DNA from: Solitalea longa
GTDB lineage: Bacteria; Bacteroidota; Bacteroidia; Sphingobacteriales; Sphingobacteriaceae
Reading direction: 5' to 3'
NCBI RefSeq assembly: GCF_002920915.1
Contig: NZ_PQVF01000002.1
Span: 62,375 to 126,374 of the forward strand
DNA length: 64,000 bases
Translations under genes and position numbers: made by a program
Notes under the pieces: model-generated
What the model saw: only the letters and a program-made list of their open reading frames with translations
Databases searched by the model: none
Told to the model about the DNA's origin: nothing
Shown here: one piece after another, positions 3,147-47,585 of the stretch
How positions within the stretch are numbered: the first letter of the stretch is position 1
Layout: each line of letters begins with the position of its first letter

Positions 3147-3156
3147 AAAAACCTTA

Positions 3157-5811
3157 TTAGTCTATTGTAATGACTTTCTCTGTTACATTCCACCCTTGTA
3201 ATTTGATTGCAAGCTCAGTTGAATTAAGTTTCGGATCGAACTCAACCACTACTTTCTTCTCCCCGCCCGGAGTAACAGAAAGATAATTATCAGAATAAAA
3301 CACCGGCAATATTCGATTTGATGATTCCTTATCAACAACGGACAATCTGTTAAAAAACGCCACAGGGTTAGTTGTTGGATTCTGGAGCGTAACTTCCAGT
3401 TTACCTGGAGCAATTTTCTTGGCATTTACCTGCAGATCTGCAGCTTTCATCTCTTGCAAACCCGTGTATTGTCCGCTCTCATTAGGTAACCAGTAAAAGT
3501 TATCACTTACTACTTTTTGATGCTCATCCAGTATTCTTAATGATAAAAAAGCACCTTTGGCTTTTGCCATCTCATCTACCTCTTTTTTGATGGATAGATA
3601 TTTTTTAGCGCTTGAAGCATCAATATTAGAAAACACCTGAGTTATCAGTTTTTCTTTCCCTTCCATATCGATCAATTTCACCTCTAGCATCAAATTCCGT
3701 TGAGCTTCAAAACCATTGTTTACCACCATTACCATTCCATCGACAGGATTACACATAATATGCAGTGCCTCACTTCCTGATCTTAAGCCATACAAACAAG
3801 CATTCGGATCGAGGTAATAATCATACATCTGTCCTCTCATTGCAGTCCAAGGATTTTGAGTTTTCCAGATGATCACGCCTGTATACCAATCCCAAATGTG
3901 AGAGCTAAACCCTTCAATTAATCCCCGATATTGATCATAATTTACCAATTGGGCTTTTAAAGCAAAGTCTCTTAAATCCTTCGGCTTTCCGTAGGGCTCT
4001 ATAAATTGATTATACCCAACACCAGTGTACTTATGGTATGTCCAAACCGAATCCGTTAACTCTTCCGGTTTCACCCCTGATTTAAAAACAGGGACTTTCA
4101 TATTTTCTTTTGGGATAAATCTCTCGAGTGATTCATAATCACCAATACCTACCGACCCCACTTCACTATTAAAGGGATAGGTTCTTTCTTCCCAAAACGT
4201 CTTGATATTTTGAATTCCATAGGGGCCATCGCCGTTTCCTCCAATAGAATTGTACGACATTTCGTCAGCGTTCGAATATTCAACAAACCAACGAGTACCA
4301 TCCAGTGTTGGCAAGATGGAGTCTCTTAATGGCACTAGTATATCCTCCGGCGGAGTCATTTCATTTCCCCCACACCACATGGCAAGCGAAGGATGATTGC
4401 GAACCATTTTAATCATATCTGCTGCCGATTCCAAAAACAGGTTATGATCTTCAGGGTATTTTCTGCGGGACCATTGATCCTCCAGTTTCATCGGGTCAAG
4501 CCAGCGTCCATTACAATCGCCGGATATCCAAAAATCCTGAAATACCAATAATCCATATTTATCGCAGGCCTCATAAAACTCAGGACGTTCAACCAATGCC
4601 CCTCCCCATATTCTGATCAGGTTTAGATTCATATCCCGATGAAAACGCACTTCGGCATCATAACGTTCTTTTGAAAACCGAAGCATCGCATCAGAAATAA
4701 TCCAGTTACCGCCTTTAATGAATATTTTCTGTCCATTAACCGATATCTGCTTGCTTCTTGTTCGTTCATTCCATTCAGTTTTGATCTCTCTTAATCCAAA
4801 AGAAATAGATTCAGAATCCGTGACAACTGCACCATTCTCTACAAATTCAAGTTTAATGTTATAAAGAGGCTGATCTCCATAACCAGCCGGCCACCATAAA
4901 CGAGGATTAGTAATGGTTAAATCGGGCAGTCGAACTGTTACGACAGTATTTGGCTTGATCAGTACTTGTTTGGATATTGTTTTTCCGTCGAAATTATATT
5001 TTAATACACCTTGTACCGTTTTATTCGAGGCATTTTGTAGGTCAGCAGAAAGCTTAATCTGCGCAGGAGCTTGTATTCCTGATGACTTCCTCTTACCAGG
5101 AACTACTGTGACCACAAGTGGATCTTTTATGTTTACAGCTGCGGTCCGTTCAATAAACACTTTATCCCAAATTCCGGTATTTCGGTCGCGAATAGGTTGG
5201 ATCCAGTCCCAACCGGCTACATATTGATGCGAAACATTTCGGGCAATAGTTCCATCACCGCCTTGTCCTCCGTTCGGGTTCCCAACCGGATCAGGCGGAT
5301 AAACGATCACGGCCAATCGGTTATTTCCGGTTGAAGAAAGTAACGAAGTAATATTGAAAGTCTTCCGAAGAAACATTCCTTTGTATGGCTCGACATTTAC
5401 TTTTTTCCCATTCAGGTAAATATCGCAGCTGTAATTAATCCCCCGAAAAGTTAACCAAACCTGCCGTGAACCTGTTGGCGCTTCCTCTTTAAAATCCTTA
5501 ACAAACCAATAAGTATAGTAATCTCTCCCGGTTTGATAGATATCTGGGATCAGGTTATTATTCATCCCGTAAAAAGGATCAGGAATTTCCTTGTTAGCAA
5601 GCATGGAAGTTAAAACCGTTCCGGGAACAAGAGCTGGTTTCCATGCTTTCAATGAATAGGATAAGGAGGAAATGGCATCCCCAGTTTCTTTTATTGATGT
5701 TATTGGAGCACATACCCAGCCCGAGTTTAATTCGTACCGGTTTTGGGCGGTTAATTTGAAAGATGCTATAGAGAGAATAATCAAAACGATTATGCCTAAT
5801 CTTTTCTTCAT
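3157..5811 (-). CDS. glycoside hydrolase family 2, beta-mannosidase-like (EBM-type)
   Basis: Exported GH2 enzyme of 884 residues with an N-terminal signal peptide (hydrophobic residues 6-20). Order of parts: jelly-roll sugar-binding domain, immunoglobulin-like domain, TIM barrel, C-terminal beta domains. The acid/base Glu is in WCGGNEMTPPED near residue 482 and the probable nucleophile Glu is in FNSEVGS near residue 549. The block around GVIIWKTQNPWTAMRGQ recalls plant mannosylglycoprotein endo-beta-mannosidases (EBM), which act on the Man-beta-1,4-GlcNAc of N-glycan cores. GH2 beta-mannosidases and exo-beta-glucosaminidases are the alternatives; the latter usually lack the GNE signature. It is the first gene of the pair with the GH3 enzyme. 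Confidence 0.85.
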   Translation of the reverse strand: MKKRLGIIVLIILSIASFKLTAQNRYELNSGWVCAPITSIKETGDAISSLSYSLKAWKPALVPGTVLTSMLANKEIPDPFYGMNNNLIPDIYQTGRDYYTYWFVKDFKEEAPTGSRQVWLTFRGINYSCDIYLNGKKVNVEPYKGMFLRKTFNITSLLSSTGNNRLAVIVYPPDPVGNPNGGQGGDGTIARNVSHQYVAGWDWIQPIRDRNTGIWDKVFIERTAAVNIKDPLVVTVVPGKRKSSGIQAPAQIKLSADLQNASNKTVQGVLKYNFDGKTISKQVLIKPNTVVTVRLPDLTITNPRLWWPAGYGDQPLYNIKLEFVENGAVVTDSESISFGLREIKTEWNERTRSKQISVNGQKIFIKGGNWIISDAMLRFSKERYDAEVRFHRDMNLNLIRIWGGALVERPEFYEACDKYGLLVFQDFWISGDCNGRWLDPMKLEDQWSRRKYPEDHNLFLESAADMIKMVRNHPSLAMWCGGNEMTPPEDILVPLRDSILPTLDGTRWFVEYSNADEMSYNSIGGNGDGPYGIQNIKTFWEERTYPFNSEVGSVGIGDYESLERFIPKENMKVPVFKSGVKPEELTDSVWTYHKYTGVGYNQFIEPYGKPKDLRDFALKAQLVNYDQYRGLIEGFSSHIWDWYTGVIIWKTQNPWTAMRGQMYDYYLDPNACLYGLRSGSEALHIMCNPVDGMVMVVNNGFEAQRNLMLEVKLIDMEGKEKLITQVFSNIDASSAKKYLSIKKEVDEMAKAKGAFLSLRILDEHQKVVSDNFYWLPNESGQYTGLQEMKAADLQVNAKKIAPGKLEVTLQNPTTNPVAFFNRLSVVDKESSNRILPVFYSDNYLSVTPGGEKKVVVEFDPKLNSTELAIKLQGWNVTEKVITID

Positions 5812-12506: not shown

Positions 12507-15173
12507 ATGAACAAAACTTTTCTGCTATTAATTTGTACGCTTTTCACATTTAACGTTTATAGTCAAAAAAGTGACTCGACGATTACCAAAAAGAAGTACT
12601 TTACCAAACCTCTAAGCGGAAGTATAAACTTTGATGGCATTCCACAGGAAGAAGCTTGGAATGCTGTTGAATGGGGGGGCGATTTTACACAATGGCAGCC
12701 TAATGAAGGAAAATCGCCTTCGCAAAAAACCAATTTCAAAATTCTTTACGATAATCAATACCTATACATCGCTTATCGTTGCCATGATATGGCGCCTGAT
12801 TCGATCATAAAACGTATGGGCAGAAGAGATGAGTTTCCTGGTGATTGGGTAGAAATTAATATCGATAGTTACCATGATTTGCGCACCGCCTTTTCATTTA
12901 CCTTATCGGTTTCGGGGGTACGTAACGATGAATTTGTTTCAGAAAACGGCAATAATTGGGATGCGAACTGGAACCCCATTTGGTTTGCTAAAACCCATGT
13001 TGACGAGCAAGGTTGGACTGCCGAAGTTAAAATTCCGCTAAGTCAGCTTCGTTACGGCAATGAAACTGAAAAGGTTTGGGGCATCCAGGTTATGCGTCGC
13101 ATTTTCAGAAAAGAAGAACGTTCTACCTGGCAGTTTATTCCACAAAACTCCGGAGTTTGGGTAAGCAGTTTTGGCGAACTATATGGCCTCAAAAATATTC
13201 CTACACACCGTCAGATTGAAATTGCCCCTTATCTAGTTGCCCAAGCCGACAAATACCAGGCAACTCCGGGAAATCCCTTTGCTACCGGATCAGATAAAAA
13301 ACTGACCATGGGAGTAGACGGAAAATTTGCCGTAACAAATGACCTGATTCTCGATTTTACGGTAAACCCTGATTTCGGACAAGTGGAAGCTGACCCTTCA
13401 CAGGTTCGTATCGATGGTTTTCAGAATTATTTTGAAGAACGTCGCCCGTTCTTTATTGAAAGTCGGAATATATTTAGCTATCAGCTAACTGGCTCAGAAG
13501 CTGGAGGTGATTACGACTCAGATCTGCTTTTCTATTCCCGCCGTATTGGGAGTTCTCCGCACAGCTATCCAACTACCGGAGCTGGAGAGTTCGCTGATGT
13601 TCCCTTAAATACTTCTATTTTGGGGGCCGCTAAGTTTAGCGGGAAAACCCAAAAAGGCTGGAGTATTGGCGTGCTCGAAAGTGTAACCCAACGCGAGATG
13701 GCCACCATTGATAATTTGGGTGTAAGACGCGATGAATTGGTTGAACCATTAACCAACTACTTTGTTGGACGATTACAGAAAGATATAAATAGTGGCAATA
13801 CTGTTTTAGGAGGTATTTTCACGGCAGTTAACCGAGGAGAGGGCTTGAATAACATGTTGACTAAAAACGCCTTTTCTGGAGGCTTGGATTTTCTTCATTA
13901 CTGGAAAAAACGCACCTGGTACATAAGGGGTAATATGGTGTTTAGTCATTTAGAAGGAAGCAAAGAATCGATTCTAGGTGTTCAAACTGCCTTTGAGCAC
14001 TTATTTCAACGAGATGGAGCTCCAGAGGTTTCGGTAGATCCTAACCGCACCTCGTTGACAGGCACCGGAGGGACTTTCCGTTTGGGTAAAATAGGTGGAA
14101 AATCAGGCAATATGGGTCAGGTATTTAAATTTGAAACCGGCGTTACCTTCCGCTCTCCCGAACTCGAATTAAATGATATTGGTTTTATGTTAACATCAAA
14201 CGAAATCAATCATTTTACCTGGGCCGGATTACAATTTCAAAAACCATTTTCCATTTTCCGTAGCGCACGGATTAACTACAACCATTGGTCGCGGTGGGAT
14301 TTTGGCGGTCAATTCCTTTATCAAGCCTTCAACACCAATTCACATGCAACGTTCAAGAACAATTGGCAAACAGGTGTAGGGCTCACCTGGAATCCTTATG
14401 ATGTTTCAAACAATACTTTGCAGGGCACATCATCCTTACGCAAGCCGGCAGGAATAGCCCAAAACTGGTATGTTAACAGCGACTATCGTAAAAAAATATA
14501 TACTAATTTTTATTACAATAATTTCTGGGGGTTTGAAAATACTGTTAAAGGAAATGATTTGGGCATTGCCTTTACCTTCCAGCCTTTAAATGCACTTCAA
14601 TTGAGTTTAGGAGTTGATTATTCATACTATTGGCGCCGTCAGGATCAATTTGTAGCCAATGCTAAAGTCGATGATCAAGCTATGATCCGTTCAATTGTTA
14701 GCTCTGTAGATCAAAATACGCTTCGTTTTACAGGAAGAATGAATTTTAACATTACTCCCGATTTAACACTGCAATACTATGCGCAGCCTTACATTACCCG
14801 ACCGCTCTACAGCAACTTCGCATACGTATCAGATCCATTGGCTAAGCACTATAACGACCGGTTTACACCTTATACTTCCAGCCAAATAAGCGAAAGTGAT
14901 GGCCGCTATTATATTGATGAAAAGGGAGACGGAACGGTAAAATATGATTTCGCTAAGCCTGACTTCAACTTTGTACAATTCCGTTCGAACTTAATTGCCC
15001 GCTGGGAATACCGACCAGGTTCGGAACTATACCTGGTTTGGTCGCAAGGAAGTACTTCCAGTTCAAATTATGAACTCGATACACCAATAATGGGTAGTTT
15101 GTTCGACAATGCATTTACCGATCAGGGGCGCAATACATTTTTGATAAAGTGGACCTATCGATTCATACGATAA
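12507..15173 (+). CDS. DUF5916 protein with N-terminal CBM9-like domain
   Basis: Exported protein of 888 residues; the signal peptide ends at VYSQ (residue 19). Residues about 35-230 form a carbohydrate-binding family 9-like sandwich (LSGSINFDGIPQEEAW, then DNQYLYIAYRCHD). The rest is the DUF5916 region, starting around FTVNPDFGQVEADPSQV and NYFEERRPFF, and ends in alternating aromatic strands typical of an outer-membrane beta-barrel (final residues KWTYRFIR). Function is not established; family members are often near proteolysis or carbohydrate genes, which is not the case here. A strong bidirectional terminator follows. Confidence 0.85.
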   Translation: MNKTFLLLICTLFTFNVYSQKSDSTITKKKYFTKPLSGSINFDGIPQEEAWNAVEWGGDFTQWQPNEGKSPSQKTNFKILYDNQYLYIAYRCHDMAPDSIIKRMGRRDEFPGDWVEINIDSYHDLRTAFSFTLSVSGVRNDEFVSENGNNWDANWNPIWFAKTHVDEQGWTAEVKIPLSQLRYGNETEKVWGIQVMRRIFRKEERSTWQFIPQNSGVWVSSFGELYGLKNIPTHRQIEIAPYLVAQADKYQATPGNPFATGSDKKLTMGVDGKFAVTNDLILDFTVNPDFGQVEADPSQVRIDGFQNYFEERRPFFIESRNIFSYQLTGSEAGGDYDSDLLFYSRRIGSSPHSYPTTGAGEFADVPLNTSILGAAKFSGKTQKGWSIGVLESVTQREMATIDNLGVRRDELVEPLTNYFVGRLQKDINSGNTVLGGIFTAVNRGEGLNNMLTKNAFSGGLDFLHYWKKRTWYIRGNMVFSHLEGSKESILGVQTAFEHLFQRDGAPEVSVDPNRTSLTGTGGTFRLGKIGGKSGNMGQVFKFETGVTFRSPELELNDIGFMLTSNEINHFTWAGLQFQKPFSIFRSARINYNHWSRWDFGGQFLYQAFNTNSHATFKNNWQTGVGLTWNPYDVSNNTLQGTSSLRKPAGIAQNWYVNSDYRKKIYTNFYYNNFWGFENTVKGNDLGIAFTFQPLNALQLSLGVDYSYYWRRQDQFVANAKVDDQAMIRSIVSSVDQNTLRFTGRMNFNITPDLTLQYYAQPYITRPLYSNFAYVSDPLAKHYNDRFTPYTSSQISESDGRYYIDEKGDGTVKYDFAKPDFNFVQFRSNLIARWEYRPGSELYLVWSQGSTSSSNYELDTPIMGSLFDNAFTDQGRNTFLIKWTYRFIR

Positions 15174-20963: not shown

Positions 20964-21247
20964 TACTATGCGTATAATTATTATTAAAATCGATTGCTAC
21001 AGCATCCTGTCTTTCCAATCCCGTAAGTACCATTTCAAATCATCTGAGCAAGTACCAAGTTCTAATTTACCCCTCCTATTCTCACGGTAATTACTATTTT
21101 TTACAGCAAACAAGAGAAAGTCTAAAACCCTATTTTAGACCCCAATAAAATGAGCTGATTATTTTATCATATTTTATAACTCTTCCCCATTTTATTCGTT
21201 TAAGTAGTAAACAACAATAGTCAAATCAATAAACCATATTACCAAAC

Positions 21248-33597: not shown

Positions 33598-33846
33598 TAT
33601 ATATACTGTTTATGAAATTCTATTTGTTTATTAATAGGTTAAATACCCGGCTTCGATTAATTTCTCTGAACGTCACACACCTGCCGGTTTTTTTTGCAAA
33701 AATAGGAAACTCACCCGAATCAATGAACAATGCCTTACAAAAAGTACATAAGACACTGTTAAACAAGGGCTTTCATAAGCACAAGTCAGACCATTCTCTA
33801 CTTCCCGGCCGATAAAATTTTCGATCTAATTTTTTTTCAATCAAAT

Positions 33847-33876
33847 TTGGCGTTTTCATTCTCATTTATAACTTTG
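33847..33876 (+). promoter_or_regulatory. promoter of the CreD module
   Basis: TTG at 33847-33849, a 19-nt spacer, then TAACTTTG at 33869-33876. Both elements and spacing match the Bacteroidota housekeeping consensus TTG-N19-TAnnTTTG. It lies 20 nt before the first ATG of the module. Confidence 0.75.
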
Positions 33877-33888
33877 CAATACAAAGTT
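33870..33888. promoter_or_regulatory. operator palindrome 1 of the CreD module
   Basis: AACTTTG (33870-33876), 5-nt spacer, CAAAGTT (33882-33888), a perfect 7-bp inverted repeat. It overlaps the -7 promoter element, as expected for a repressor site. The same core recurs at 34889-34905. The winged-helix regulator encoded at 34570-34872 is the likely binder. Confidence 0.7.
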
Positions 33889-33896
33889 CTTTTTAA

Positions 33897-34541
33897 ATGG
33901 ACATCAACGTAAACAAGCACCTTGAATCGTTAACCGAGATCAGGAGCTTAATGGAGAAATCTTCAAAATTTATTTCGCTAAGTGGTTTATCGGGCATTTT
34001 TGCCGGTGGTTATGCTTTATTGGGCGCCGCTGCTGCATTTTGGGCTAATATCCATTATAATCAGTTAAGAATCCCTATTAAAGAATTTTCTCCAGAGTTT
34101 TCGCTTCAAAACAGTTTTTTATTATTCTGCCTGATCGACGCTTTGCTCATTTTGCTTTTATCCATAGTAACCGCTTTTATTTTCTCCAAACAAAAAGCAG
34201 CTAAAACGCAGCAATCTATTTGGGATAAATCGGCGCAACGATTAGCTATTAACCTTGCCATTCCATTAGCCACAGGTGGTGTTTTCGCTATTTATTTATT
34301 GCTCGATGGCAATTATAAACTGATTGCTCCAAGCATGCTGATTTTTTACGGATTAGCACTTTTTAACGCCAGCAAATATACCATTGGCGACATCAGGTAT
34401 TTAGGCTTAACTGAAATTGCTCTTGGATTGATCAACCTTTTTGTAACCGGATATGGATTTTGGTTTTGGTGCTTCGGATTTGGAGTAATGCACATTATAT
34501 ATGGCTTAGTGATGTACCGCAAATATGATTCGGCAGCCTAA
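33897..34541 (+). CDS. multi-span membrane protein, first gene of the CreD module
   Basis: A 214-residue inner-membrane protein with about six hydrophobic segments in three pairs (residues 27-50, 75-97, 115-135, 142-158, 172-185, 188-205). No named family is recognised. It is followed after 28 nt by a winged-helix regulator, then by a Coq4-like gene and creD, all on the same strand. This gene pair of membrane protein and small regulator in front of creD seems recurrent in Sphingobacteriales, from memory. Promoter and operator are described separately. Confidence 0.75.
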   Translation: MDINVNKHLESLTEIRSLMEKSSKFISLSGLSGIFAGGYALLGAAAAFWANIHYNQLRIPIKEFSPEFSLQNSFLLFCLIDALLILLLSIVTAFIFSKQKAAKTQQSIWDKSAQRLAINLAIPLATGGVFAIYLLLDGNYKLIAPSMLIFYGLALFNASKYTIGDIRYLGLTEIALGLINLFVTGYGFWFWCFGFGVMHIIYGLVMYRKYDSAA

Positions 34542-34569
34542 ACTTAAAACGCTTAATTAAGAAAAACCA

Positions 34570-34872
34570 ATGGTCGTAAATCTGTTTAACAATTTCAATA
34601 AAGCCTTTGAAAGCAAGGTCAGATTGGGCATTATGTCGGTTTTAATGGTAAACGAAACCATTGATTTTACAACCTTAAAAGAACTATTGAATGTAACCGA
34701 TGGTAATTTGGCCAGCCATTCAAAAGCACTCGAAGAACTTAAATACATTATGATAACTAAACAATTTATCGGTAAAAAGCCGAACACCACCTATTCAGTA
34801 ACTGAATTAGGCAAAAAGGCTTTTGTTGAACACTTGAACAGCCTTGAGCAGTTATTGAATTCTAACAGATAA
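34570..34872 (+). CDS. winged-helix transcriptional regulator
   Basis: A 100-residue single-domain regulator with a winged helix-turn-helix in the PF13601-like/MarR-ArsR fold. Visible parts: an N-terminal helix (FESKVRLGIMSVLM), DFTTLKELLNVTDGNLASHS as helix-turn-helix, then the wing IGKKPNTTYSVTELG. It has no metal-binding cysteines, so an ArsR-type metal sensor is unlikely. Two identical-core palindromes flank its transcription unit, which suggests it represses both the whole operon and an internal promoter before the Coq4-like gene. Confidence 0.9.
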   Translation: MVVNLFNNFNKAFESKVRLGIMSVLMVNETIDFTTLKELLNVTDGNLASHSKALEELKYIMITKQFIGKKPNTTYSVTELGKKAFVEHLNSLEQLLNSNR

Positions 34873-34887
34873 TTTTTTTTGTATAAC

Positions 34888-34906
34888 AACTTTGAATTAC
34901 AAAGTA
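34888..34906. promoter_or_regulatory. operator palindrome 2, before the Coq4-like gene
   Basis: ACTTTG (34889-34894), 5-nt spacer, CAAAGT (34900-34905). It has the same half-sites and spacing as the palindrome at 33870-33888. It overlaps a near-consensus -7 element (CAACTTTG) and ends 17 nt before the next ATG. Confidence 0.65.
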
Positions 34907-34922
34907 CTTTTAATTATAAAAA

Positions 34923-35465
34923 ATGAAAAAATTCATCATTATCGGTCTTTATAATCTTAGCAAAAAACCTTATCAAGCTCTTTTTAAAAACAATAAGGCT
35001 TGGAACATTTCGTCTCAAGAATTACGTGACTTTCCGGAAGGATCATTAGGAAATGAATTAGGCTGTTTTCTAACAGAAAATGATTTCGAGCTACAAGCCA
35101 AATTAGAAAATCATGATGTTTTTCATGTTTTAGCTGGCATAGGCACTTCAGTGATCGAAGAAATTGCTTTGCAATATTATTTGCTTGGAAATGGTAAGAG
35201 GAGTATTTATCTAAAACTGGTGATTCTTTTAGGCACTTTGTCCTACCCTAACCAATTTTCGCTGTTTTTTAGTAAATACAAGGAAGGTAAATCATTCTCC
35301 GCTTTTCATAACCTTGATTTCTTCCCTCTTCTTCATCATCCAATTGCGGAAATAAAAAAACACCAGCCCAGTATCGCTTTAAAATACACCAATAAAGGCA
35401 AATTCTATTCGCCCTTAAAACCTATAGCAATTACTGTTCAACGACAAGAATTTATTAAATATTAA
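34923..35465 (+). CDS. Coq4-like protein
   Basis: A 180-residue soluble protein. Residues 78-95 contain HDVFH followed after eleven residues by Glu, exactly the HDxxHx11E metal motif of the Coq4 family. The preceding segment FPEGSLGNELGCFL also matches Coq4 (PEGTLG). In mitochondria and proteobacteria Coq4 supports ubiquinone synthesis. Bacteroidota use menaquinone, so the role here must be different, perhaps lipid or quinone binding or chemistry at the membrane. It lies 13 nt before creD and has its own operator-like site. Family assignment by motif; function unknown. Confidence 0.7.
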   Translation: MKKFIIIGLYNLSKKPYQALFKNNKAWNISSQELRDFPEGSLGNELGCFLTENDFELQAKLENHDVFHVLAGIGTSVIEEIALQYYLLGNGKRSIYLKLVILLGTLSYPNQFSLFFSKYKEGKSFSAFHNLDFFPLLHHPIAEIKKHQPSIALKYTNKGKFYSPLKPIAITVQRQEFIKY

Positions 35466-35478
35466 CACAAATAGAATC

Positions 35479-36906
35479 ATGGAAACCTTAGAAACAAAAC
35501 AACCCGCACCAACCTTCTTCGAGCGTAATGCCATTATTATTAAACTGATGATGGTCGGTTTTATCAGCCTGTTATTACTTATCCCGTCGGTAATGATTCA
35601 GAACCTGGTTATTGAACGTTCTGAAAGCAGAGATCATGCAGTAAACGATATCTATTCGAAATGGGGACAGACGCAAACCTTGGCCGGGCCAATTCTAAAT
35701 GTGCCTTATCGAACGTTAACAAAAGATGCGAATGGCAAGGAAGAGATCACGCTCGATTACCTTCATTTTTTACCGGAACGACTTGATGTAAAGGGAAATA
35801 TTGACCCTTCAATTCGGTATTATGGAATTTACGAGGCGATCTTGTACAACGGAAAACTTAATTTTTCAGGGAATTTTACCTCTCCTGATTTGAACGGATT
35901 GAAAGTAGTTCCTGAAAGTATCTCATGGAAAGACGCTTTTATAACCATTGGCATTAGTGATTTAAGAGGTATAAAAGAAAGCGTTTTAGTTAATCTGAAC
36001 GATAAAGCATATACGGTAAATCCGGGTATAGAAAGAGGTGGCGTTTTTGATTCGGGTTTAAGTATTCCATTTCCATTGGAGGGTGCTCAATTACTGTCTG
36101 GAGTAAAATTTGGCTTTAGTATTAACTTAAACGGAAGCAGTAAATTAAGCTTCTGGCCATTAGGCAAGGAAACCAATATCCAACTGAACTCTCCTTGGAC
36201 TACGCCTAGTTTTTCTGGAGCATTTTTACCAGAGAGCCGTGAAGTCTCTGAAAAAGGATTTTCGGCCAAATGGAAAGTACTGGAGCTAAATAGAAATTTC
36301 CCGCAAAAATGGACAGGAGATCTGTATAGCTTTGCAAACGCTGATGAAGATACAGATGCTACCTCCCTAGCCATTGATACTAGAGAACATAAAACAAAGA
36401 ACGCAGTTATCGACAATTATTCTTTTGGTGTTGACCTGTTGATGCCAGTTGATTTCTATCAAAAAGTATATCGCTCGGCAAAGTATGCGCTTATGTTTAT
36501 CGGCCTCACCTTTACTGCCTTCTTCTTTATTGAATTGGTTAACAAAAAGCGAATACACCCTGTTCAGTATATTTTGGTTGGATTTGCCCTGGTGATCTTT
36601 TACACGCTGTTGCTTTCATTCACCGAGCATTTATCATTTGGAATAGCTTATTCAATCGCATCGGCGGCAACCATTTTACTGATTACCTGGTTCTCGGGAA
36701 CAGTGCTTAAAAGTAAAGGTCTCTCTATTCTAATGGGATCCTTACTTTCTGCGCTTTATTTATTCCTCTACATTTTATTGCAAATGGAAGATTATTCGCT
36801 GTTAATTGGCAGTATCGGCTTATTTGTAATATTAGGATTGGTGATGTTTATTTCGAGAAAAGTAGACTGGTACGATTTCAGAAAAACGGAAGTACAGGTC
36901 AATTAG
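35479..36906 (+). CDS. creD: cell envelope integrity protein CreD
   Basis: A 475-residue inner-membrane protein. One N-terminal helix (residues 22-46) precedes a large periplasmic beta-rich domain (residues 50-320, with QTLAGPILNVPYR), and a helical C-terminal region follows with about five spans. In E. coli CreD belongs to the CreBC regulon and its loss or excess alters envelope and colicin sensitivity; biochemical activity is not known. Here it is the last gene of the module and ends at a strong terminator. There is no CreBC two-component pair nearby, so control is presumably by the winged-helix regulator. Confidence 0.92.
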   Translation: METLETKQPAPTFFERNAIIIKLMMVGFISLLLLIPSVMIQNLVIERSESRDHAVNDIYSKWGQTQTLAGPILNVPYRTLTKDANGKEEITLDYLHFLPERLDVKGNIDPSIRYYGIYEAILYNGKLNFSGNFTSPDLNGLKVVPESISWKDAFITIGISDLRGIKESVLVNLNDKAYTVNPGIERGGVFDSGLSIPFPLEGAQLLSGVKFGFSINLNGSSKLSFWPLGKETNIQLNSPWTTPSFSGAFLPESREVSEKGFSAKWKVLELNRNFPQKWTGDLYSFANADEDTDATSLAIDTREHKTKNAVIDNYSFGVDLLMPVDFYQKVYRSAKYALMFIGLTFTAFFFIELVNKKRIHPVQYILVGFALVIFYTLLLSFTEHLSFGIAYSIASAATILLITWFSGTVLKSKGLSILMGSLLSALYLFLYILLQMEDYSLLIGSIGLFVILGLVMFISRKVDWYDFRKTEVQVN

Positions 36907-36916
36907 CTTTCAGTAA

Positions 36917-36952
36917 AAAAGCCGCAAAACAATATATTTTGCGGCTTTTCTA
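36917..36952 (+). terminator. terminator after creD
   Basis: Perfect 13-bp stem (36917-36929 with 36937-36949), 7-nt loop, ending in four T. Confidence 0.9.
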
Positions 36953-37014
36953 TCTCTAAACTTACTATTATGAAAATATGTTTTTTTAAAATCCTTAAAC
37001 AAAACGCGAGTTGG

Positions 37015-46646: not shown

Positions 46647-47585
46647 TTAAACCAATTTCATATCTGATAATACATTGTTCATTGCACGAACAGCGTCAGC
46701 GCTTTTTGCAAAAGCTGCTTTTTCTTCTTCGTTCAATTCGAAATCAATGATTTTTTCCCAACCATTTCTTCCTACTACCACTGGAACTCCCATACAGATA
46801 TCTGACTGACCATATTCACCTTCTAAGAAAACTGAAGAAGCGAATACACGTTTCTCGTCACGAACAATAGACTCAACCATTGCAGCACCGGCAGCACCTG
46901 GAGCATACCATGCTGAAGTACCCAATAAACCGGTTAAGGTAGCACCACCCACCATTGTATCAGCAGCAACTTTTTTCAATGTATCAGCATCTAAAAATTT
47001 AGAAACCGGTACACCATTATAAGTAGCAAGGCGAGTTAAAGGAATCATGGTGGTATCACCGTGACCGCCAATAACAGTTCCATGAAGTTCATTTGATGAA
47101 CAGTTCATTGCCTGACCTAAGAAATATTTAAAACGAGATGAATCCAATGCTCCACCCATACCAATTACACGGTTTTTAGGCAAGCCTAAAGCCTTGTAAG
47201 TAAGATAAGTCATCGTATCCATTGGGTTTGAAATAATAAGGAAGATAGCATTTGGGGAATGCTTTAAGATGTTTTCTGCAACACCTTTAACAATACCAGC
47301 ATTAATACCGATCAACTCTTCGCGAGTCATGCCTGGTTTACGTGGTAAACCTGAAGTAATAACTACTACATCCGAACCTGCTGTTTTTGAATAGTCGTTA
47401 GTAGTACCAACAATTTTGGTATCAAAACCTAACAACATAGCAGTTTGCATCATGTCCATTGCTTTACCTTCGGCAAAGCCTTCTTTGATATCTAATAAAA
47501 CTACTTCAGAGGCAAGCTCTTTACGAGCGATGTTGTCTGCACAGGTAGCACCCACGGCGCCTGCACCAACTACTGTTATTTTCAT
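46647..47585 (-). CDS. mdh: malate dehydrogenase (LDH-like type)
   Basis: NAD-dependent conversion of malate and oxaloacetate in the TCA cycle. The N-terminal Rossmann motif is GAGAVGATCADN, and the substrate loop GLPRKPGMTREE has the Arg residues that favour malate over lactate. The catalytic His is in IGGHGDTT. The 312-residue length from the ATG at 47585 is standard; the upstream frame to 47618 is discarded because it adds eleven residues that do not fit the family. Alone, with its own terminator. Confidence 0.95.
   Translation of the reverse strand: MKITVVGAGAVGATCADNIARKELASEVVLLDIKEGFAEGKAMDMMQTAMLLGFDTKIVGTTNDYSKTAGSDVVVITSGLPRKPGMTREELIGINAGIVKGVAENILKHSPNAIFLIISNPMDTMTYLTYKALGLPKNRVIGMGGALDSSRFKYFLGQAMNCSSNELHGTVIGGHGDTTMIPLTRLATYNGVPVSKFLDADTLKKVAADTMVGGATLTGLLGTSAWYAPGAAGAAMVESIVRDEKRVFASSVFLEGEYGQSDICMGVPVVVGRNGWEKIIDFELNEEEKAAFAKSADAVRAMNNVLSDMKLV

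Follow-up and report, generated by a model that had tools for sequence, protein, structure and literature searches.

The creD gene of proteobacteria is a target of the CreBC system, and a creD mutant of Stenotrophomonas maltophilia was defective in cell division and envelope integrity (PMC4689548). Coq4 proteins are known for a metal motif, HDxxH-X11-E, found in COQ4 and shared by the Nostoc homologue Alr8543 (PDB 6E12; PMC9774615). The HTH_34 family of small winged-helix proteins includes PH1061 (PDB 1ub9), and an exosortase N (XrtN) system is recognised by families TIGR04476 and TIGR04477. Members of all these families meet in the locus described here and in its relatives. The locus lies in a 64,000-nucleotide (nt) stretch of the Solitalea longa genome (NZ_PQVF01000002.1, positions 62,375 to 126,374), called the window below. 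It consists of genes for a membrane protein, an HTH_34 regulator, a Coq4-like protein and CreD, and of two copies of the palindrome ACTTTG-N5-CAAAGT. Judged from sequence comparison, it is probably a self-contained cassette in which operator 1 precedes the genes for the membrane protein and the HTH_34 repressor, and operator 2 precedes the cargo; the repressor would silence the promoters of both parts and a few other promoters. Binding of the palindrome by the regulator is very probable. With its relatives, it appears to represent a previously undescribed regulon, widespread in the class, and a family of cassettes that pair a membrane protein with a repressor.

The regulator was sought in 60 related genomes, and 33 strong matches (E 3.8e-26 or better), the window included, were taken as orthologous cassettes; locus L081 was excluded, as its regulator was not recovered on re-search. 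With at most one mismatch, the palindrome stands before the membrane-protein gene (operator 1) in 32 of the 33 cassettes, 24 times exactly, and after the regulator gene (operator 2) in 29, 23 times exactly. The first-pass annotation had tied the palindrome to this regulator, and so it was found: the palindrome is present at orthologous loci and is not equally frequent away from the regulator. The constant part, on this comparison, is operator, membrane gene, regulator, operator. The central five bases of the palindrome vary. CTTT follows one base past the right arm at all operators found (32/32 and 29/29) and is regarded as a third half-site; right arm and third half-site are conserved equally to the left arm. 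Operator 1 has T at position -2 upstream (32/32), and operator 2 is preceded, at a constant spacing, by a run of seven T (28/29), which is not a feature of operator 1. At loci found through the motif itself, which therefore do not give independent counts, six or more T were present in 46 of 58 operator 2 contexts and in 4 of 58 operator 1 contexts among the matches listed. In loci L073, L074 and L075, the two operators of each cassette carry the same variant (CAAAGC or AAAAGT), as if tracking a changed regulator.

Exact copies in the window are at 33871-33887, before the membrane gene, and 34889-34905, before the Coq4-like gene. The first had been annotated at 33870-33888, with one extra flanking base on each side; the distance of 17 nt between the end of the second and the Coq4-like ATG (34923) agrees with the annotation. 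The 4.5 Mb host genome has three exact sites, two of them within the window, against one for the palindrome written backwards as a control. The cassette comparison yielded a longer form, TWACTTTG-N5-CAAAGTWCTTT, and with up to two mismatches this matched only the two operators in the window (0.02 expected). The 17-mer alone is not enriched when mismatches are allowed: at two mismatches the window has seven sites against 5.9 expected, and at one mismatch the host genome has ten, fewer than the 22 of the backwards control.

Co-occurrence was followed in 395 genomes of the class. A regulator match at E 1.3e-23 or better was counted as an orthologue and was present in 127 genomes, while any regulator match was present in 177 and any exact site in 179. 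Among genomes with an orthologue, 115 have an exact site and 93 at least two; among the 268 without it, the numbers are 64 and 14, respectively. Sites outnumber the backwards control in genomes with an orthologue (258 vs 83) and not in those without (86 vs 128), and the 60-genome set gave the same pattern (75 vs 24 and 4 vs 12, respectively). Twenty-two sites from genomes without an orthologue were examined, namely all four of the 60-genome set and 18 of the 33 in 13 of the 14 multi-site genomes of this kind. None of them was both outside open reading frames (ORFs) of 100 amino acids (aa) and adjoined by a full third half-site. Loci L202, L207, L218, L221 and L275, found through the motif, are titled as other phyla and also have HTH_34 matches.

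Weaker regulator matches form a paralogous subfamily, whose presumed recognition helix mostly reads AGNLSVQ instead of DGNLASH. Twenty-five paralogous loci were compared, five from the 60-genome set and 20 weaker matches listed in the 395-genome search. The ACTTTG site, with at most one mismatch, is upstream of none of them (0/25, against 32/33 orthologous cassettes). Instead, an exact GTTTA-N5-TAAAC palindrome precedes their own membrane gene in 14 of 25 loci (L078, L334, L340 and L352 among them) and also follows the regulator in four; no orthologous cassette has it (0/33). A profile comparison aligned the membrane-protein families of the two subfamilies along most of their sequence (E 3.6e-5, probability 71), which suggests a distant relationship. 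A distinct palindrome in paralogous cassettes is the best control available: it speaks for an operator specific to the regulator and against a feature of promoters in general. The window itself holds two exact GTTTA-N5-TAAAC palindromes, at 21198-21212 and 47336-47350, with 0.33 expected.

The palindrome might still be the -7 box of Bacteroidota promoters with a chance inverted copy, or some other general promoter feature; its left half contains the TTTG of TAnnTTTG, and the lack of enrichment in the window at two mismatches and in the host genome at one would suit such a feature. Three observations make this explanation extremely improbable: conservation of the right arm and third half-site equals that of the left arm, exact sites track the regulator across the 395 genomes, and paralogous cassettes have a different palindrome in the same region.

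In Flavobacterium psychrophilum, the sigma-A -7 box has the sequence TAnnTTTG and spans -12 to -5 (PMC9723704). Such a box on operator 1 places the predicted transcription start at 33881, inside the dyad, so the whole element would cover about -12 to +12. A TTG at -25 to -20 is present in 42 of the 58 operator 1 contexts and in none of the 58 operator 2 contexts, among the motif matches listed. Scans of the window with a sigma-70 type promoter model and a simple terminator model gave nothing above shuffled sequences. The starts of the two half-sites are separated by 11 bp, roughly a turn of the helix, which fits a winged-helix dimer. The proposed course is that a repressor dimer would sit on ACTTTG-N5-CAAAGT, possibly with an extra touch at the third half-site on the gene side. 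Bound over the -7 box and the predicted start, it would close both promoters of the cassette, the one that drives the repressor and the one ahead of the cargo, together with a few more at other loci; in the host, the promoter at another locus would be the one for a 96-aa membrane protein. Promoter blocking is the simplest reading of a site that covers both the -7 box and the predicted start, and that the regulator represses is quite probable, as judged from the overlap of operator and predicted promoter core. The earlier proposal of one small repressor at two promoters stands in its first part, one regulator with two operators being strongly supported by the comparison, while repression is read from the overlap with the promoter core.

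An activator or dual regulator, positioned by the site to recruit or remodel RNA polymerase, is unlikely. Operator 2 could speak for it, as all 58 contexts among the matches listed are without TTG at -25 to -20 and most have the T tract, as a promoter needing help might. Relative to the predicted promoter, however, dyad and third half-site extend from about -12 to +12, where repressors usually bind, and the operator 1 promoter is consensus-like and drives the regulator itself. Very improbable is an action of the site as RNA, through a leader hairpin that controls termination or translation. ACUUUG-N5-CAAAGU could pair as a six-pair stem (by eye, unfolded) and the direction of the element is fixed relative to the gene, but with the predicted start inside the palindrome, a transcript from this promoter would be without the left arm, and two regulator subfamilies with two palindromes are expected of DNA read by a protein.

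The membrane protein is a candidate signal partner of the repressor. It would be made from the same promoter; it most likely senses the state of the membrane or envelope and would relieve or enforce repression by contact with the repressor. That it is the signal partner of the regulator is about an even chance. Its model (pLDDT 88.0) has no soluble domain, and the N-terminal helix and first membrane helix are rich in conserved residues. The model had no match in the PDB at E 0.001 or better. A second structure comparison gave middling Z values for helical bundles, with a best of 8.0 to a designed barrel; this likeness is taken to reflect a common arrangement only.

Regulator-bearing genomes of the 60-genome set have 28 exact sites outside the cassette. 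Nineteen of these are both outside 100-aa ORFs and adjoined by a full third half-site. Nineteen, a different set from the former, precede gene families found inside cassettes elsewhere, by reading of the sequences. The families behind such lone sites are membrane proteins of 112, 96, 415 and 95 aa, DUF2809, an MpaB-like oxygenase, the VIT protein of the XrtN system (TIGR04477) and exosortase K (TIGR04287). With these 19 family-matched sites oriented to the gene, 15 have the third half-site facing the gene, as cassettes do, and one has it on the opposite side; a third half-site on either side of the dyad was dropped as a candidate on these counts. The third site of the host, one of these 19, precedes the 96-aa membrane protein (L140), which resembles proteins within cassettes L054 and L074. 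In L120 and L129, a tandem pair of operators stands before a single gene, for the XrtN-system VIT protein and the 112-aa membrane protein, respectively.

Several observations weigh against a cassette with its own repressor and regulon. Exact sites number fewer than two in 34 of the 127 orthologue-bearing genomes, 12 of which are without any, and 64 of the 268 without the orthologue carry at least one; genome G354 carries five, of which one was examined. The Fisher value for the association of site and orthologue is extreme, and it overstates the case because genomes are related by descent and are not independent. In G052, a genome without the orthologue, the same palindrome is 26 nt before a PadR gene (L142, 1501-1517), and perhaps another regulator has a similar site there. 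Operator 2 is absent in L053, L059 and L060; L077 is without both sites, yet its genome G037 has three exact sites elsewhere. Nine of the 28 outside sites precede nothing known from a cassette or fall in ORFs, and 11 of the 25 paralogous loci are without an exact upstream GTTTA site. The operator 2 promoter is less clear than that of operator 1, because its -7 box begins with CA and not TA, the TTG box is absent and a T tract is present instead. Finally, because the third half-site is nearly always on the gene side, it may belong to the early transcript instead of serving as a protein contact.

Genes behind operator 2 are variable. Within the stretches taken, CreD is in 15 and the Coq4-like protein in five of the 33 regulator-found cassettes, and these are lower bounds, as some stretches stop at contig ends. 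Other cargo includes DUF4153, exosortase N with its VIT partner, DUF6688, DUF2809, MpaB-like proteins and small membrane proteins. A fixed CreD-Coq4 pair was dropped after this survey, and on these counts both first-pass names, CreD module and envelope stress unit, proved too narrow. In L062, a short match to the end of CreD (residues 435-464) lies after operator 2 at 3149-3220, possibly a remnant of a lost creD.

Cargo exchange was estimated on a tree of 114 cassettes, computed from membrane protein and regulator; its loci had been found through the regulator, through Coq4 or through the motif. Over 105 labelled rows, the first recognised cargo needs a minimum of 40 changes (in shuffles, 60.7 on average and never below 54); for the presence of CreD, the minimum is 18 changes over 90 rows (in shuffles, 28.7 on average and never below 23). 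Both counts are rough, because support reaches 80 on only 67 of the 112 branches. Changes below the shuffles and still many indicate cargo that is inherited in part and frequently swapped. A motif scan of named genomes gave at least 117 stretches, and 68 of 80 printed titles were Bacteroidota. Among the motif matches listed, 84 of 117 stretches hold a regulator match in a broad search and 69 hold both genes at stricter limits. More tentatively, a little short of an even chance, HTH_34 regulators and distantly related six-helix membrane partners could form a family of plug-in membrane-sensing cassettes with subfamily-specific operators of one N5 geometry (ACTTTG or GTTTA half-sites) and lineage-specific membrane cargo; the ACTTTG branch would then be a shared envelope switch for CreD, exosortase N, DUF4153, Coq4-like and MpaB-like proteins, perhaps related to membrane isoprenoids or quinones.

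The Coq4-like protein matches PF05019 over residues 62-92 only (E 7.6e-5), and its 22.5 bits are below the cut-off of 22.9. It is named Coq4-like because the Coq4 fold and motif are present and the family cut-off is missed; a genome search with the Coq4 family gave no match to it at E 0.001. Its model (pLDDT 83.4) has Nostoc Coq4 homologues as the three best PDB chains in Foldseek (6e12 twice and 3msq, E 1.3e-5 to 1.3e-4). Across 26 sequences, H64, H68 and E80 of the motif are invariant and D65 nearly so. A profile search found the protein in 28 of the 395 genomes, and upstream of 22 of the 28 genes, no more than 2.5 kb away and on the gene's strand, is a site with at most one mismatch, in a cassette or alone. 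The genes without such a site are those of G117, G359, G219 and G358 and the weak matches of G280 and G407; a second Coq4-like locus of G338 (L194) is likewise without it. An ordinary enzyme of ubiquinone biosynthesis, located here by accident, would also have the Coq4 fold and metal motif. It is an improbable explanation, as the 22 of 28 genes downstream of a site tie the protein to the regulon, and no host protein reaches the cut-off for ubiquinone hydroxylases, a result that does not settle the quinone type, as MenB is likewise under its cut-off. Coq4 and MpaB/Lcp-type proteins are both linked to isoprenoids, which is merely a hint. A Coq4 homologue in such a setting had been called undescribed; the literature searched indeed did not have Coq4 and CreD together, while the pairing recurs in other genomes and is not unique to the window.

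The annotated tight run of four genes was borne out by ORFs and family matches. All four are on the + strand (33897-36906) and are flanked by - strand genes on both sides, a PRiA4_ORF3-like gene and a PolyA_pol/HD-domain gene, neither of which is creB or creC. The regulator matches HTH_34 (PF13601) over domain positions 1-80 of 80 with E 1.3e-27 and 96.2 bits (cut-off 27), and the sequence of PDB 1ub9 matches it with E 2.5e-8. CreD matches PF06123 (E 4.9e-160, 533.5 bits, cut-off 23) and NF008712 (505.7 bits, cut-off 275) over its full length. A role in defence was set aside, as PADLOC gave only two winged-helix-type matches to the regulator (best Csa3, E 1.1e-5) and none to the other three proteins. 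A hairpin after CreD was not among the results of the simple terminator scan of the window. Coordinates are in Table 1.

Table 1. Features of the Solitalea longa cassette, in positions of the window
Feature	Position	Strand	Remarks
TTTG, candidate -33 box of first promoter	33846-33849	+	predicted from sequence and TTG pattern
Operator 1	33869-33892	+	-7 box TAACTTTG 33869-33876; dyad 33871-33887; third half-site TCTTT 33888-33892
Membrane protein	33897-34541	+	214 aa; no Pfam family; model with N-terminal helix and six long helices
HTH_34 winged-helix regulator	34570-34872	+	100 aa; DGNLASH in presumed recognition helix
T tract	34873-34880	+	immediately 3' of the regulator stop codon; conserved upstream of operator 2 only
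Operator 2	34887-34910	+	dyad 34889-34905; third half-site ACTTT 34906-34910
Coq4-like protein	34923-35465	+	180 aa; H64-D65-x-x-H68-X11-E80
CreD	35479-36906	+	475 aa; PF06123 and NF008712 matches
Terminator-like hairpin 3' of CreD	36913-36953	+	fold -17.2 kcal/mol, z -5.8

A literature search in which few subscription journals were covered gave no description of the cassette and no operator or regulon of HTH_34, PF13601 or PH1061, and no paper linking any pair of exosortase N, CreD, DUF4153 and DUF2809. If the cassette works as proposed, CreD of this phylum, DUF4153, DUF2809, the exosortase N system and the small Coq4-like protein would share one switch, hence one condition, and the signal of one repressor, once found, would reveal that condition for all these membrane families. 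The cassette would be a testable handle on several envelope proteins of obscure role. The two regulator subfamilies, which differ in operator and in presumed recognition helix, also offer a natural experiment in the change of DNA specificity among winged-helix proteins.

Compared with the CreBC system of proteobacteria, creD would be a target here too. There, a two-component system adjoins creD; here, an HTH_34 regulator and a membrane protein take this place and creD is one cargo among many. By analogy with the S. maltophilia mutant, an envelope role is plausible here. TTCACN6TTCAC, which we take to be the CreB tag, has no exact match in the window and a single one-mismatch match at 14328, so none before creD. 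PH1061 has the same length as the regulator and a sequence match over residues 15-96. Nostoc Alr8543 shares fold and HDxxH-X11-E with the Coq4-like protein, which is shorter, under the Pfam cut-off and apparently tied to a regulon of mostly membrane genes. Members of the exosortase N system are cargo after operator 2 or stand behind lone operators; none is among the four genes of the window, and regulation of this system was not found in the literature searched. PadR-like local repressors are small winged-helix regulators beside a membrane gene, as here; they belong to another family. The finding is real and larger than first stated, and the cassette is unusual, with parts that come from known families or from a familiar kind of circuit.

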